From positions 1-22,166 of IMG/VR virus record IMGVR_UViG_3300030328_003676: DNA of 22,166 nt; one strand, written 5' to 3'. The notes beneath the pieces were generated by a model that worked only from the letters and a program-made list of their open reading frames with translations, was not told the DNA's origin and ran no database searches. Made by a program: the position numbers and the translations under genes. This DNA is from a virus. Positions 1,131 through 17,028 of the stretch are shown one piece after another; the stretch's first letter is position 1, and each line of letters opens with the position of its first letter.

Positions 1131-2117
1131 ATAGAAATTGAAAAAAAGAAGGAAGTCAGGCGGACTCTGCAAATATGCAAAATCCTAGAGGCGCTAAGAG
1201 TAAAAAATACCTTTTTAGGTTTATGATTGAGCAATAGCCAATAAATACACTCGAAGCCTACTGCACTTCCGTCTCGAAGGCAAAGTTAGTGATGGAGCCT
1301 CGAAGGCCCCGCTTAGTATCAAGTAGAAAAGCGAAGAATAGGGCTGCTGATTAGAACCATGAGCACATCAGACTTCTTGACACATGAAAGAAGTTCTCTA
1401 AGCCACAATGAAAAGACACTCAGTGTGCTAGGCCACCAGTAGACGAATAGTCGGAACGCCCCTCAAGTAAATGCGAGCATAGTGTCAAAAAGACGAGCAT
1501 GAATGTGAAAAATAGTAACATCTGTATCTAAAGCGAGTCGCAAGATTATAAGTCTTTAGAGTGAGCGTCAAAAAGGGAAGTAAAGTGCGAAACACGTAAC
1601 ATAAGAACACGCGAGCAACACTGAAAGAGGAGAACAAACCAATTTATATGGTAGCAACCCACCCAACTGTTCGGGCCTTAGGAGCAGTATAAAAACGGAG
1701 CGTAGGAAGTGTGGAAATGCAATCCACGACTGCATAACGTGAGCAGAAAAGAATGACGAAACCAAGTGTAGCCCTGCACACTCACTTGTAAAACAGATGA
1801 ACAGGGGGTGATAGACGCGTAGATTCAACCTGAAAATCTCGTAGCATATCCGTAGGGAGAGGCTTAGTGTCCCTAATGTTTACCGAATGAAACAGAACGA
1901 GCTACTTGGTAAAGCAAACAGTCCCTTACAGCTATACAAATGGAAGATGCGTGTAAAACTGGCTAAGTAGAAATCTAATATGTAATCGAAGCTGGCGAGC
2001 ATCGTAAGTGGAAATCCTTTCTGAGCCCGTGTAATCCCTCTGCGCTATAAAATGAGGACTCGAAAAGAAAAATTAAATTCTAATTTATTTACCCTGACCA
2101 TTCGGCAGGGTTTTTTT
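1131..2117 (+). ncRNA. candidate giant ornate noncoding RNA (about 985 nt)
   Basis: The unit has a strong promoter before it, a strong terminator at its end, and no plausible rightward gene. It is visibly richer in G and C than its neighbours. Perfect helices read by eye include 1372-1378/1388-1394 (7 bp), 1527-1533/1554-1560 (7 bp), 1853-1858/1870-1875 (6 bp) and 1879-1884/1908-1913 (6 bp). Also seen is 1306-1309 plus 1310-1314 with 1329-1333 plus 1341-1344, and a contiguous arm 1999-2008 pairing with 1925-1929 and 1946-1950. Two H-type pseudoknots are clear: stem 1711-1715/1723-1727 with loop ATGCA pairing to TGCAT at 1731-1735, and stem 1763-1768/1783-1788 with loop CCCTG pairing to CAGGG at 1802-1806. 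Size, pseudoknots and phage setting recall GOLLD and ROOL RNAs. I cannot confirm membership, so it may be a relative or a new class. Its function is unknown. Confidence 0.75.
2092..2117 (+). terminator. strong rho-independent terminator of the large RNA
   Basis: CCCTG-a-CC (2092-2099) pairs with GG-CAGGG (2104-2110) around the loop ATTC, with one bulged A. Seven T follow at 2111-2117. Confidence 0.9.
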
Positions 2118-6017: not shown

Positions 6018-6044
6018 TATAAAAACGAAGTATAAAACCTAACT

Positions 6045-6100
6045 AAAACCGCAACGGGGCTTTCATAGCCCCTTTTCTTTACCCAAACCGCAACGGGGCT
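6045..6100. repeat. 16-bp direct repeat containing the terminator's left arm
   Basis: AAACCGCAACGGGGCT occurs at 6046-6061, where it forms the left arm of the terminator, and again at 6085-6100 without a matching right arm. This looks like a partial duplication of the terminator or a repeated binding site. Confidence 0.7.
6056..6076 (+). terminator. terminator of the 2.2-6.0 kb operon
   Basis: GGGGCT (6056-6061) pairs with AGCCCC (6067-6072) around TTCAT and is followed by TTTTCTTT. Read leftward the hairpin is intact but its T-run is interrupted. Confidence 0.85.
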
Positions 6101-6485
6101 AACAACGAGTATTCAAATCTAAGAGACTAGGGAACAATTTGTAAAAATTAAATGCCTACTGTATCAAGTTTATACAGCCAATAATAGATTAAAAATAATT
6201 TGCGATTGCCCAAGTTGATGAATCAAAATAGTTGCAAAAATTAGACGCAGATGTAGCAACTTAGTTGAAGTTGTTGTTGTGTGGAATTATATTAGAACTG
6301 TTTGATTTAAATAGCTACTTAGTTGCTTTAATCGCATAACACTCCCTCAACGAAAACAGAGATAACAGGTTTCGAGCCATCTCCCCTGAGGGGGAGCTGT
6401 CTCTCACGTGTTACTCTTTTGTTTAGTTCGGAGTTGAGTTTGATGTGTTGTAGTTAGCTTGGTTAGTTCTAATTTTTATGTATAT
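6101..6485. other. structured intergenic region, possible leftward noncoding RNA
   Basis: No gene is seen on either strand. Inverted repeats include CTGTAT/ATACAG (6159-6177), CAACTT/AAGTTG (6257-6273) and CTCCCC-TGAG-GGGGAG (6381-6396). The last is enclosed by ACAG/CTGT (6365-6368/6397-6400) and GAGA/TCTC (6359-6362/6402-6405). TAGCAACTTAGTTG (6254-6267) and TAGCTACTTAGTTG (6312-6325) are near-identical direct repeats. A weak leftward promoter at 6486-6514 could transcribe the region. An RNA is a possibility, not a conclusion. Confidence 0.45.
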
Positions 6486-6514
6486 ATTATACCACAATTT
6501 TAACAAAATTACAA
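6486..6514 (-). promoter_or_regulatory. weak leftward promoter candidate
   Basis: On the minus strand TATAAT (6491-6486) is perfect. A TTGTAA lies 17 bp upstream (6514-6509), matching the -35 consensus at four of six positions. It would transcribe 6479 leftward through the structured intergenic region. Confidence 0.45.
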
Positions 6515-6519
6515 CAAAA

Positions 6520-6557
6520 ATTTTTGAGTAGGTCATTTACTCGCAATCCTGTGCGAG
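6520..6557 (-). terminator. hairpins at the end of the leftward operon
   Basis: Read leftward, CTCGCA (6557-6552) pairs with TGCGAG (6545-6540). A second hairpin then pairs GAGTA with TACTC (about 6542-6526), followed by AAAAATTTTT. This fits a termination region for the leftward operon, although the A-run precedes the T-run. Confidence 0.5.
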
Positions 6558-6579
6558 TCTCATCTGACATAAAATACTT

Positions 6580-6834
6580 TTATTCTTCTTCGGGTGGTAG
6601 GGTTTTATCGGACAATATCGGTAAGCGAGGCTCAGGTGGGAGTTGATTTTTCTTGTGGAGAGCCGCCGATCTGCGTTTTGCAGCGTTCATTTTCTCTTGT
6701 CTGCGTTGTGCTGGTTTGGTATAATACTGTTTTTTACGCCAATCTTCTAGTTTGCCGTCTTTTTGAACTTTTCGTTTGAACTGCCTGAGTAGGCGATCGA
6801 AAGGGATTGGTTTGTCATTTTTGCGTTTTCTCAT
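6580..6834 (-). CDS. rpsU: phage-encoded ribosomal protein bS21 (84 aa)
   Basis: The protein follows bS21, the small-subunit protein near the anti-Shine-Dalgarno region: PIPFDRLLRQFKRKVQKDGK, then LEDWRKKQYYTKPAQRRQEK and a basic NAAKRRSAALHKK stretch. The first two blocks correspond to the PFD-ALRRFKR and R-REFYEKPTTER parts of bacterial bS21. The tail (about 65-84) is proline-rich and acidic, unlike the usual basic end. The ATG at 6834 is chosen over a TTG at 6852. It overlaps the upstream gene by 20 nt, so translation may be coupled. bS21 homologs are known from aquatic phages; the role proposed is biasing ribosomes toward phage mRNA, which is inference here. Confidence 0.88.
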   Translation of the reverse strand: MRKRKNDKPIPFDRLLRQFKRKVQKDGKLEDWRKKQYYTKPAQRRQEKMNAAKRRSAALHKKNQLPPEPRLPILSDKTLPPEEE

Positions 6835-7081
6835 ATAAGTCCGTAGGCACAAATTGCCTGATGTGTTTAGAAAGGGGATTTGCTACCCCTAGTGAGTTAT
6901 CAACTGTTACCTCTAAAAATTTGACAACCCAAGCCATATCAAAGACAAAGTCCTTGCTGGCAGTATTAATTCCATTTCTCTCTAGCAAATCTAATAATTT
7001 TAGAGAGATGTCGTTTACGATTACATCTGACCTTTCTTTTGGGGTCGGACGTTTGGGAAAAGGTATTACTTTTCCATTCAT
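6815..7081 (-). CDS. conserved phage protein of unknown function with VIPFP start (88 aa)
   Basis: The protein starts with a short basic segment (MNGKVIPFPKRPTPKERSD) followed by helices. The segment FVFDMAWVVKFLEVTVDNSL resembles small proteins recalled from marine myoviruses and podoviruses, but no function is known. AGGAG lies just upstream of the ATG, at the end of the previous leftward gene. It is the middle gene of a three-gene leftward operon with a Myb-like protein and bS21. Confidence 0.75.
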   Translation of the reverse strand: MNGKVIPFPKRPTPKERSDVIVNDISLKLLDLLERNGINTASKDFVFDMAWVVKFLEVTVDNSLGVANPLSKHIRQFVPTDLYEKTQK

Positions 7082-7605: not shown

Positions 7606-7611
7606 ATATAT

Positions 7612-7773
7612 GTAGTGGAGAGATATCACTACGCAACAGAATGCGCAGTAGCGGAACCTGCATTGTTAAAGCCGCACTTATGTCTGGCACGAGTAGGAAA
7701 CAAGATGCTTTCCGAGGGCGAGGTCAGGAGTCTCACTACCACCAGTGAGCGGGTTTGTTAGACATAATTTTTT
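7612..7773 (+). ncRNA. structured leader RNA or attenuator upstream of hsp20
   Basis: The transcript would begin with a 5' hairpin GTAGTG/CACTAC (7612-7617/7627-7632). A bulged helix follows, 7635-7637 plus 7640-7644 with 7660-7667, and part of its loop (GCGG, 7651-7654) can pair with CCGC (7672-7675) as a pseudoknot. A domain closed by a perfect 8-bp helix TTATGTCT/AGACATAA (7678-7685/7760-7767) holds hairpins GGAAA/TTTCC (7696-7713) and CTCACT/AGTGAG (7732-7749). Six T follow directly at 7768-7773, so this may end transcription or act as an attenuator. No start codon with a ribosome binding site is seen inside. Known classes were not recognised. Confidence 0.65.
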
Positions 7774-7779
7774 ATAAAC

Positions 7780-7820
7780 GAGTTGCCGAAAGGAACTCAA
7801 GACGACTGCCGAAAGGAGTC
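7780..7820 (+). promoter_or_regulatory. twin GAAA-tetraloop hairpins before the hsp20 ribosome binding site
   Basis: GAGTT-g-CC-GAAA-GG-AACTC (7780-7798) and GACT-g-CC-GAAA-GG-AGTC (7804-7820) have the same design: one bulged G and a GNRA loop. The stem bases differ between the two but pairing is kept. AGGAG (7824-7828) follows. They may protect the mRNA or bind a protein. Confidence 0.75.
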
Positions 7821-7834
7821 AACAGGAGAAACAA

Positions 7835-8269
7835 ATGACAGGATTACAAACTGCATTAAATTTTAACGATTTCGACAAATTGTTTGTCGGATTTGATCGC
7901 TTGCACAATCAGCTAGCGAGTAGGGTAACAGATTTACCCATTACTAATTATCCAAGATATAATCTAGTTGCTATAGGAGAAGAGGCTTACCGAATTGAAT
8001 TGGCATTACCAGGCTGGAAGAAACAGGACATAGAAATAAAACAACACAAAAATGAGCTTACCATAGAAGGTAAGGAAAAACAGGAGTTGGACTCAAATGA
8101 TGAACGCTACATCTATAAAGGACTTAGCGGGAAAACATTTAAAAGAGTTTTTACTCTTGGCGATTGGGTTGAAGTTAAGGACGCTGGCTTCAAAGACGGA
8201 TTATTAGTAGTAAATCTAGAGGTAAATACACCCGAAGCAGAAAAACCTAAAGCGATAGAAATAGGTTAA
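7835..8269 (+). CDS. hsp20: Hsp20 / IbpA-type small heat shock protein (144 aa)
   Basis: This is an alpha-crystallin chaperone, which holds unfolding proteins in a soluble state without ATP. A short N-terminal arm (about 1-38) leads to NYPRYNLVAIGEEAYRIELA, then LPGWKKQDIEIKQHKNELTI and the GFKDGLLVVNLEV strand typical of IbpA-like proteins. The C-terminal KPKAIEI holds the conserved I-x-I contact. The length is normal for the family. Hsp20 genes are common in marine phages and are thought to help virion or replication protein folding. It has AGGAG 6 nt before the ATG and a long structured leader behind its own promoter, so expression is probably regulated at the RNA level. Confidence 0.92.
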   Translation: MTGLQTALNFNDFDKLFVGFDRLHNQLASRVTDLPITNYPRYNLVAIGEEAYRIELALPGWKKQDIEIKQHKNELTIEGKEKQELDSNDERYIYKGLSGKTFKRVFTLGDWVEVKDAGFKDGLLVVNLEVNTPEAEKPKAIEIG

Positions 8270-14309: not shown

Positions 14310-15257
14310 ATGGAAAATATAAAAGCACTTTTAAGAAGGGCAGCAATGGCTTACTACAATGGTAAGCCTATCATGTCTGACGAAGAATTTGATAGTCTTG
14401 CAGAGTTACATAACTTTGAAGAGGTCGGAACTACTGATGGTAGAATTCCTCATGCCTATCCTATGTATTCTTTACAAAAAGTGTTTTCCACTGACCTCAA
14501 TAGCAACCCCCTTAAATCTTACGCATCGGGAGTAACAGTTACTCCTAAGCTAGATGGTGCTGCTGTCGCTATAACCTATGTAAATGGGGAATTTCGCAGA
14601 GCATTGACAAGAGGAGATGGCAAAAAGGGACTAGACATTAGTAATCATATGAAAACGCTAGTTCCAAATAGACTTACTTCCCCTGTGCCATCGTTATTGC
14701 AAATAACAGGAGAAGTAGTCGCCCCAAAAACTATTAAGAACGCAAGAAATTATGCCGCAGGAGCCTTGAATCTAAAAAGCACAACGGAATTTGTTAGTCG
14801 AGAACTCATCTTTATAGCACATAACTCTGAACCCTATGTAAACGACAGCTATGCAAACGCTATGGCTGAATTACGTGATACGTTAGGTTTTGATACCGTG
14901 CTCGACAGTGACTGGACAAAATACCCTCACGACGGGGTGGTTTTTAGAATTGACAGCTATAAGGACTTTGAGAAATTTGGTCATACTTCTCGCCACCCTA
15001 GAGGAGCATATGCTCTGAAAGAAAGGCAAGAAGGAGTTATCACAACATTAGTTGATGTTAAATGGCAAGTTGGTAAGTCTGGAGTTGTTGCTCCTGTAGG
15101 TATTTTAGAGCCTACAGAGATTGATGGCGCTGTAGTTAGTAGAGCAACTTTACATAACATGGCACATATAGAGGGGTTAGATTTAGAAATAGGCTGCTTA
15201 GTAGAAGTTATACGAAGCGGAGAAATAATACCAAGAATAGTAAGGAGAGTGGATTAA
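14310..15257 (+). CDS. ligA: NAD-dependent DNA ligase, adenylation and OB part (315 aa)
   Basis: This is the catalytic half of a bacterial-type NAD ligase, which seals nicks using NAD. A short Ia-like region has AYYNGKPIMSDEEFDSL (about 14-30), the NMN-binding pattern. The nucleotidyltransferase core has the active lysine K80 in TPKLDGAA, R101 in LTRGDG, E135 in ITGEVV, D208 in PHDGVV and K251 in VKWQVGKSG. The OB fold follows (about 258-312), ending SGEIIPRI. The chain stops there: zinc finger, HhH and BRCT domains are on the gene at 16267-17028. It is leaderless behind its own promoter. T5 also has a two-gene NAD ligase, a precedent for function in pieces. Confidence 0.93.
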   Translation: MENIKALLRRAAMAYYNGKPIMSDEEFDSLAELHNFEEVGTTDGRIPHAYPMYSLQKVFSTDLNSNPLKSYASGVTVTPKLDGAAVAITYVNGEFRRALTRGDGKKGLDISNHMKTLVPNRLTSPVPSLLQITGEVVAPKTIKNARNYAAGALNLKSTTEFVSRELIFIAHNSEPYVNDSYANAMAELRDTLGFDTVLDSDWTKYPHDGVVFRIDSYKDFEKFGHTSRHPRGAYALKERQEGVITTLVDVKWQVGKSGVVAPVGILEPTEIDGAVVSRATLHNMAHIEGLDLEIGCLVEVIRSGEIIPRIVRRVD

Positions 15258-16266: not shown

Positions 16267-17028
16267 ATGGAAAAAGAATTGCAAATAATAACACCGCCAA
16301 CAAACTGTCCTATATGTGAATCAGTTTTAGAGTGGGAAAAAGACCAAATCTTTTGTTTTAATGCTAATTGTAGTGGTAAAACAAGTAAAAGAATGGAACA
16401 TTTTGCAAAGACTTTGAAAATAAAGGGGCTCGGCCCTAGAACAATAGAGAAATTAAGGATAGGTAATCTTTATGACCTCTACGAAATGAATCTTGATTTA
16501 ATGATAGATTTATTACAATCCGAGAAACTGGCAGTTAAACTGCACAGAGAGATTCAAGCTAGTAAGAAAGTTGATTTAGTAGACCTATTACCAGCCTTCT
16601 CAATTAAGTTGATTGGGACTACGGCTTCTCAAAAAGTATGTGAAAAGATAGACTCGCTTTTAGAGTTGAACGAGAAAGTATGTAGTGAAGCAGGACTAGG
16701 CCCGAAAGCAACAGAATATTTACTAGATTGGTACTATGACGAATTTACAGATGGTTATGATAGATTACCTTTTAGTTGGAAAACGACAGTTCAAAAACGA
16801 ACTGTAACTGAGACAAAAGGAACAGTATGCATAACAGGTAAGTTGAAAAGCTATCCAACAAAGGCAGCCGCAAATAACGTATTGGAAAAAATGGGCTACC
16901 TTGTAAAAAATAGTTTGACAAAAGATGTAACTATCTTAGTAAACGAAAGCGGAATTGAATCCGCAAAAACACAAGCAGCCCGAGAACGGGGTGTTCAAAT
17001 AATAACAAACCTAAAAACAATTTTATAA
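16267..17028 (+). CDS. ligB: NAD-dependent DNA ligase, zinc finger-HhH-BRCT part (253 aa)
   Basis: This is the C-terminal half of the split ligase. A four-cysteine zinc finger (C14, C17, C30, C35 in CPIC and CFNANC) is followed by helix-hairpin-helix elements (LKIKGLGPRTIEKL, about 50-63; further units to about 160) and a BRCT domain (about 180-253, TKGTVCITGKLKSYPTKAAA onward). These parts bind DNA around the nick; the adenylation and OB domains are on the gene at 14310-15257. The promoter at 16230-16258 makes this piece independently expressed, at probably similar strength because the promoters are alike. Confidence 0.92.
   Translation: MEKELQIITPPTNCPICESVLEWEKDQIFCFNANCSGKTSKRMEHFAKTLKIKGLGPRTIEKLRIGNLYDLYEMNLDLMIDLLQSEKLAVKLHREIQASKKVDLVDLLPAFSIKLIGTTASQKVCEKIDSLLELNEKVCSEAGLGPKATEYLLDWYYDEFTDGYDRLPFSWKTTVQKRTVTETKGTVCITGKLKSYPTKAAANNVLEKMGYLVKNSLTKDVTILVNESGIESAKTQAARERGVQIITNLKTIL

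Follow-up and report, generated by a model that had tools for sequence, protein, structure and literature searches.

The 22,166-base virus record analysed here in full (the window) carries T5-like replication genes and, near its beginning, a stretch of about 1 kb for which a preliminary description proposed a large structured noncoding RNA in place of a gene. Is such an RNA encoded there, to what class would it belong, and what might it do for the phage? The elements that delimit the stretch, together with one gene that becomes relevant further on, are listed below.

676-987, + strand: upstream gene, encoding a 103-aa helix-turn-helix-like DNA-binding protein with weak matches to PHROG 1725/323
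1096-1124, + strand: sigma-70-type promoter of the RNA, TTGACT-17-TATAAT, 11/12 consensus
1131-2117, + strand: large noncoding RNA of ~985 nt, its start taken from the promoter and its end from the terminator
2092-2117, + strand: intrinsic terminator, CCCTG (2092-2096)/CAGGG (2106-2110), then T7
2139-2167, + strand: next promoter, 12/12 consensus, starting the downstream gene cluster
6580-6852, - strand: gene for ribosomal protein bS21 (PF01165, E 7.4e-12)

Both the promoter and the terminator named in the preliminary description were found as claimed, and they enclose a self-contained unit (1096-2117), composed of the promoter, ~985 nt and the terminator and located between the 103-aa gene and the next cluster; since the promoter at 2139-2167 precedes the downstream genes, the RNA unit is set apart from that cluster. 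The RNA promoter region is 92–93% identical among close relatives. The claim that no credible gene is present also holds: the longest + strand ORF within the unit has 27 aa, a TTG frame of 85–86 aa on the - strand is without a PHROG match, and across 60 homologous units the longest + strand ORF has a median length of 51.5 aa vs 52 aa in shuffled sequence. The surroundings, described as gene-dense, are so broadly, from about 2.2 kb onward, but other spacers are present, e.g., at 6020-6560. Judged by the anatomy of the promoter and terminator and by coding capacity, the unit is a self-contained noncoding transcription unit.

The replication genes of the window include a split NAD-dependent DNA ligase, a D5-like regulator, a DnaB-like helicase and a primase, and the identity of the helicase to proteins of cultured phages does not exceed ~30%. 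The ligase is encoded by two genes (14310-15257 and 16267-17028) that are separated by an unrelated gene region. The product of the upstream gene shows 45–83% identity among ten aligned relatives, and the gene marks the slot of the RNA across relatives; on the bacterial side, its only occurrences were in two MAG contigs, from which no host can be assigned. The spacer at 6020-6560, a second long gene-poor region, has convergent gene clusters on either side and contains terminator-like hairpins and the repeated AAACCGCAACGGGGCT. A bS21 protein is encoded by 15 of 17 related records, its gene mostly lying at a distance of 4–6 kb on the strand opposite to the RNA. The region 7606-8269 contains an Hsp20 gene (PF00011) with its own promoter and a ~230-nt leader of structured appearance. 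Some relatives possess tRNAs in the fetched flank, and none were found for others.

Relatives were gathered via the upstream gene (282 in IMG/VR, 80 kept), the downstream gene and short conserved motifs, and the removal of near-duplicates left 62 dereplicated loci. In 60 of these, an ORF-poor promoter-to-promoter unit of 585–1304 nt (median 1000) lies behind the helix-turn-helix-like gene. Locus L017 has the upstream gene and a slot without a long unit, so the RNA is not universal. A strict terminator scan was positive in 28 of the 60 homologous units and in none of 60 shuffled sequences; by eye, most units end in a hairpin and a T-run, most of those negative in the scan having long loops, which an exact-terminator scan misses. 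The window shows the features of the family, including the slot behind the 103-aa gene, its own promoter and terminator, a length within 0.6–1.3 kb and ORFs at chance level. Searches of cultured phages with the window RNA and with the unit of L014 gave promoter- or terminator-like matches only. A scan with 16-mers yielded many matches that were set aside as chance after inspection of their context. A hairpin GUGAGGAAACCACGCU (L088:4888-4902 region), absent from the window, is common to 16/60 units at the 11-mer level (null maximum 3).

Comparison of the units revealed several recurring modules, of which the window RNA carries the following four.

1198-1252, + strand: module F, with a closing stem GAGU/ACUC, an A-rich internal loop, a small inserted hairpin and an AUUG(A)GC-tetraloop-GCCAAU hairpin
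1415-1486, + strand: module A, with stem P1 GACACU (1415-1420)/AGUGUC (1481-1486), conserved CAGUGUGCUAG and CUCAAGUAAAUGCGAGCAU, and an exchangeable apical hairpin (1432-1459 in the window, with GACGAAUAGUC)
1625-1665, + strand: module B, a hairpin with the conserved internal loop AACAAACC...GGUAGCAA
1763-1838, + strand: module C, an H-type pseudoknot followed by a GYGAUURA linker and the hairpin GAUU (1822-1825)/AAUC (1835-1838)

Together, modules A, B, C and F make up about a quarter of the window RNA, and no alignable relative of the remainder has been found so far among the collected loci. Some units in the slot contain none of the four modules by pattern.

Covariation supports each of these modules. 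The closing stem of module F, in 11 sequences manually trimmed of the A-rich loop and the inserted hairpin, shows 14 double-change cells and a covariation score of 0.353 vs 0.121 in shuffled alignments (0/500). Stem P1 of module A is 98.9% paired in 15 sequences, and these sequences, after removal of the variable apical part by a script, contain 47 double-change cells, with a covariation score of 0.765 compared with 0.214 for shuffled and at most 0.125 for slid controls; 29 distinct model matches of the same module give 0.723 vs 0.181, a value favoured by the alignment of the matches to the model. The outer stem of module B, which is shorter in the window than in most relatives, scores 0.428 vs 0.102 in the relatives, and module C, represented by 39 distinct sequences, shows 103 double-change cells and a score of 0.636 vs 0.161 in shuffled alignments. 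Because kinship among the sequences inflates these scores, more weight is due to the slid controls and to how many distinct compensatory types occur than to the shuffles; both agree. A further module, E, is absent from the window and has a hairpin stem that covaries in relatives. Its interpretation as an H-type pseudoknot (GUUUG with CAAAC) was rejected because both loops would have zero length, and module E is counted as a hairpin stem only.

Covariance models of modules C (R1) and A (R2) were used to scan 662 kb from 94 sources at E<=0.05. All 52 matches of R1 and all 42 matches of R2 fall within the slot that directly follows the upstream gene and have the orientation of that gene; many of the sources were outside the training sets, and some were other fetches of the same contigs. 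In the window, module A is matched by R2 with 76.1 bits, module C by R1 with 74.5 bits over 1761-1846 and module B by model R3 with 44.9 bits. Thus, the stems of modules A, B, C and F are supported by compensatory changes among phage homologs, and the proposal of a large structured noncoding RNA is upheld by this covariation, the promoter and terminator anatomy, the lack of coding capacity and conserved synteny.

The finer structural proposals of the preliminary description fared unequally, and among them the second pseudoknot (1763-1806) alone was confirmed. This pseudoknot pairs CAAGTG (1763-1768) with CACTTG (1783-1788) and CCCTG (1772-1776) with CAGGG (1802-1806). An equivalent of the first helix was found in 32 of 37 distinct relatives vs 13.2 ± 2.6 (maximum 22 in 1000 trials) when the strands were dealt out anew among the sequences, a flexible-offset comparison that supersedes a rigid version of the test (19/29 vs 7.5); as the helix lies outside the structure of the search model, this test is independent. 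The second helix covaries. The other pseudoknot (1711-1735) is not supported: the complementarity is present in the sequence, but no homolog was found among the collected relatives. The many perfect helices mentioned earlier did not stand out, as 11 local 6-bp stems compare with 7.5 ± 3.4 in dinucleotide shuffles. The suggested tertiary pairings of 6 and 7 nt do exist exactly as described, but with no homologs to back them they do not rise above chance: distant 7-mer complements number 15 in the window RNA vs 24 in shuffles. The folding energy of the window RNA is no better than that of 20 shuffles (z = +0.95). Since these single-sequence measures are at the level of shuffles, the evidence for structure is comparative.

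The arrangement of the modules varies strongly among relatives. The order is F-A-B-C in the window and C-B-E-A, C-D-E-A, F-C-A or H-C-E-A-B in relatives, and C precedes A in every other unit matched by both models, the window alone having A before C; a scan of the window unit with filters off found no second copy of module A or C. The tip of module A can be replaced wholesale, by module B in L047 and L049, by module D in L053 and by other hairpins elsewhere. Loci with neighbouring genes 85–94% identical can have as little as 15–31% of the RNA in common: for gene pairs with an identity of 85–90%, the alignable fraction of the RNA has a median of 0.56 (range 0.15–1.00), and for L115 and L125, with a gene identity of 94%, it is 0.31. 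The window shares the promoter and terminator with its nearest relatives by gene, L002 and L022, and little of the body. A circular permutation, considered for L003 and L004, was dropped when more relatives pointed to reordering of modules and not to rotation. One subgroup (L007, L008, L010, L011, L012, L014 and L016) is largely collinear in its core, which a long-range helix (columns 754-759/1223-1228) encloses, and 33 of its 115 predicted pairs show at least one compensatory change. As far as these alignments reach, the RNA body is changed by block replacement rather than by drift, and the modules are swapped at a pace that, next to neighbouring genes that change slowly, suggests strong and shifting selection on the RNA.

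Module B is also found by itself, at or near transcript 5' ends, in unrelated marine phages (L063, L064, L066, L067, L069, L074 and L075), and in two of them, L064 and L066, it is carried by leaders of hsp20-like genes (the gene of L066 was read from the sequence). It was absent from the bacterial genome collection searched. As a stand-alone hairpin, module B may serve as a portable element for stability or protein binding.

Taken together, comparative sequence evidence leaves very little doubt that the loci contain a noncoding RNA family of separately folding modules behind one DNA-binding-protein gene, and this family, borne by T5-like uncultured phages, apparently has no earlier description among the large structured phage RNAs. 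As for its action, host RNA polymerase would make an abundant early, free-standing untranslated transcript of ~1 kb, which would act as RNA. Because loop sequences are kept while the order, number and surroundings of the modules change, each module would most likely be a separate binding site. The whole RNA may then act as a multivalent platform or decoy by which RNA-binding proteins are titrated or brought together; candidate partners are phage proteins and host factors of RNA decay, defence or translation, and fast replacement of modules would mirror changing host partners. This mechanism is proposed tentatively, whereas the noncoding modular RNA family combined with the multivalent binding platform or decoy is the best explanation overall, held with a confidence just short of even. 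A more speculative idea, for which the doubts prevail, is an RNA class that evolves like a modular protein, its domains being recombined, nested and reordered, and that serves as an order-independent binding array directed against host machinery or redirecting it.

The platform or decoy is favoured over an RNA-only structural assembly of the ROOL or GOLLD type, which is considered rather unlikely. In such an assembly, one global fold would form a homo-oligomer (a cage or scaffold), in the manner of the ROOL and GOLLD nanocages, built as an 8-mer and a 14-mer (PMC12286853), and the size, phage setting, pseudoknots and separate transcription unit of the RNA are consistent with it. The collinear core and enclosing helix of one subgroup point to a defined global architecture, not to beads on a string, and count against the platform. 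The variation of module order and content among relatives, with the inverted A/C order of the window, and the lack of an Rfam match argue against the assembly; yet ROOL and GOLLD are likewise highly variable, so variation by itself is no proof of independent modules. The present data do not separate the platform from the global-fold reading.

Other explanations account for less. A translation-related RNA, binding the (phage-modified) ribosome or free bS21, is improbable: the frequent bS21 gene of this phage group and the published OLE-RpsU proposal and GOLLD-ribosome pull-down statements (PMC12286853) are in its favour, but the whole region is syntenic, so the co-location with bS21 is not independent evidence, and the RNA contains no rRNA-like sequence. 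In a comparison with E. coli rRNA and tRNA-Glu, no mimicry-like similarity was found and rRNA words were at chance level. An antisense or leader RNA regulating neighbouring genes in cis or in trans, suggested by the position directly before a gene cluster and by the satellite PLE IIR transcript with its antisense homology to gene leaders (PMC7567579), is still less probable, as the unit has its own terminator, the next gene has a separate 12/12 promoter, and 1 kb of covarying structure far exceeds the need of such RNAs. High turnover of blocks would also be expected of a DNA-level element, i.e., a recombination or replication site of shuffling sequence with the RNA as a by-product; the strand-specific covarying modules, including G-U pairs possible on one strand only, and the conserved promoter and terminator indicate selection on the RNA and make this very unlikely. 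Least credible is a true GOLLD or ROOL member diverged beyond Rfam, to which only size and setting point. Rfam searches of the window gave no match to the RNA at the gathering score, nor at E<=10 with permissive filters, the only hits being the tRNA and noise. At E<=10, ROOL (RF03087, gathering 99.1 bits) was not found in the window and ten related records, nor was GOLLD (RF02032, gathering 150 bits) in the window and eleven records, the control genomes used being without a true ROOL or a true GOLLD. Of the three classifications left open in the preliminary description (member, divergent relative or new class), membership in GOLLD or ROOL is not supported by these searches, and a new class stands.

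Giant phage RNAs comprise very few families and have no settled function, and the present RNA adds one that is apparently unreported; a literature search, with most subscription papers outside its scope, found no published report of it. The family offers many independent sequences and several covariation-supported modules, each of which can be synthesised and tested on its own, and its natural permutations show which parts of the RNA need a fixed order. Questions about the function of giant phage RNAs and about RNA-only particles become open to direct experiment. Carried by uncultured bacterial viruses, this RNA exchanges its building blocks from one virus to another at an unusually high rate.

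Among reported RNAs, GOLLD, ROOL and the ICP1 lncRNA come closest. ROOL is a multi-pseudoknot RNA of ~570–660 nt (model/example) encoded by phages and prophages (PMC12286853), and the window RNA is also large and phage-encoded and has a pseudoknot, but the new family has a greater average length (median 1000 nt) and modules that are reordered and swapped, and there is no covariance-model match. GOLLD exceeds 800 nt, occurs in a phage setting, often near tRNAs, and consists of a conserved and a variable part (PMC12286853). The window RNA resembles it in being large and phage-borne. The window has a tRNA-Ala 3.2 kb downstream of the RNA, and the unit of L076 is followed by a sequence that looks tRNA-like on visual inspection; in contrast to the universal 3' region and variable 5' region of GOLLD, the relatives share different modules, none of them universal. 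The ICP1 lncRNA, a ~800-nt top phage transcript from a ~1-kb ORF-less gap of a lytic Vibrio phage, is neither GOLLD nor ROOL (PMC7567579, PMC9040626), and it is comparable to the window RNA in size and ORF-less phage setting. It differs in adjoining lysis genes and in its nucleotide-level conservation among ICP1-like phages; in the phage collection, it matches Vibrio phages only, and it has no match to models R1–R3 and no Rfam match above the cut-off. The ICP1 sequence (L193:14098-15108, - strand) has AGUAGC and GUAAA-rich loops and many short stems of similar look, without the modules. The long, abundant lncRNAs of phage K (Kayvirus), which have been likened to GOLLD and ROOL by position and abundance (PMC9241854), resemble the window RNA by description. 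The RNA described here apparently adds a new family to the known giant structured phage RNAs and is distinguished by unusual modular exchange.
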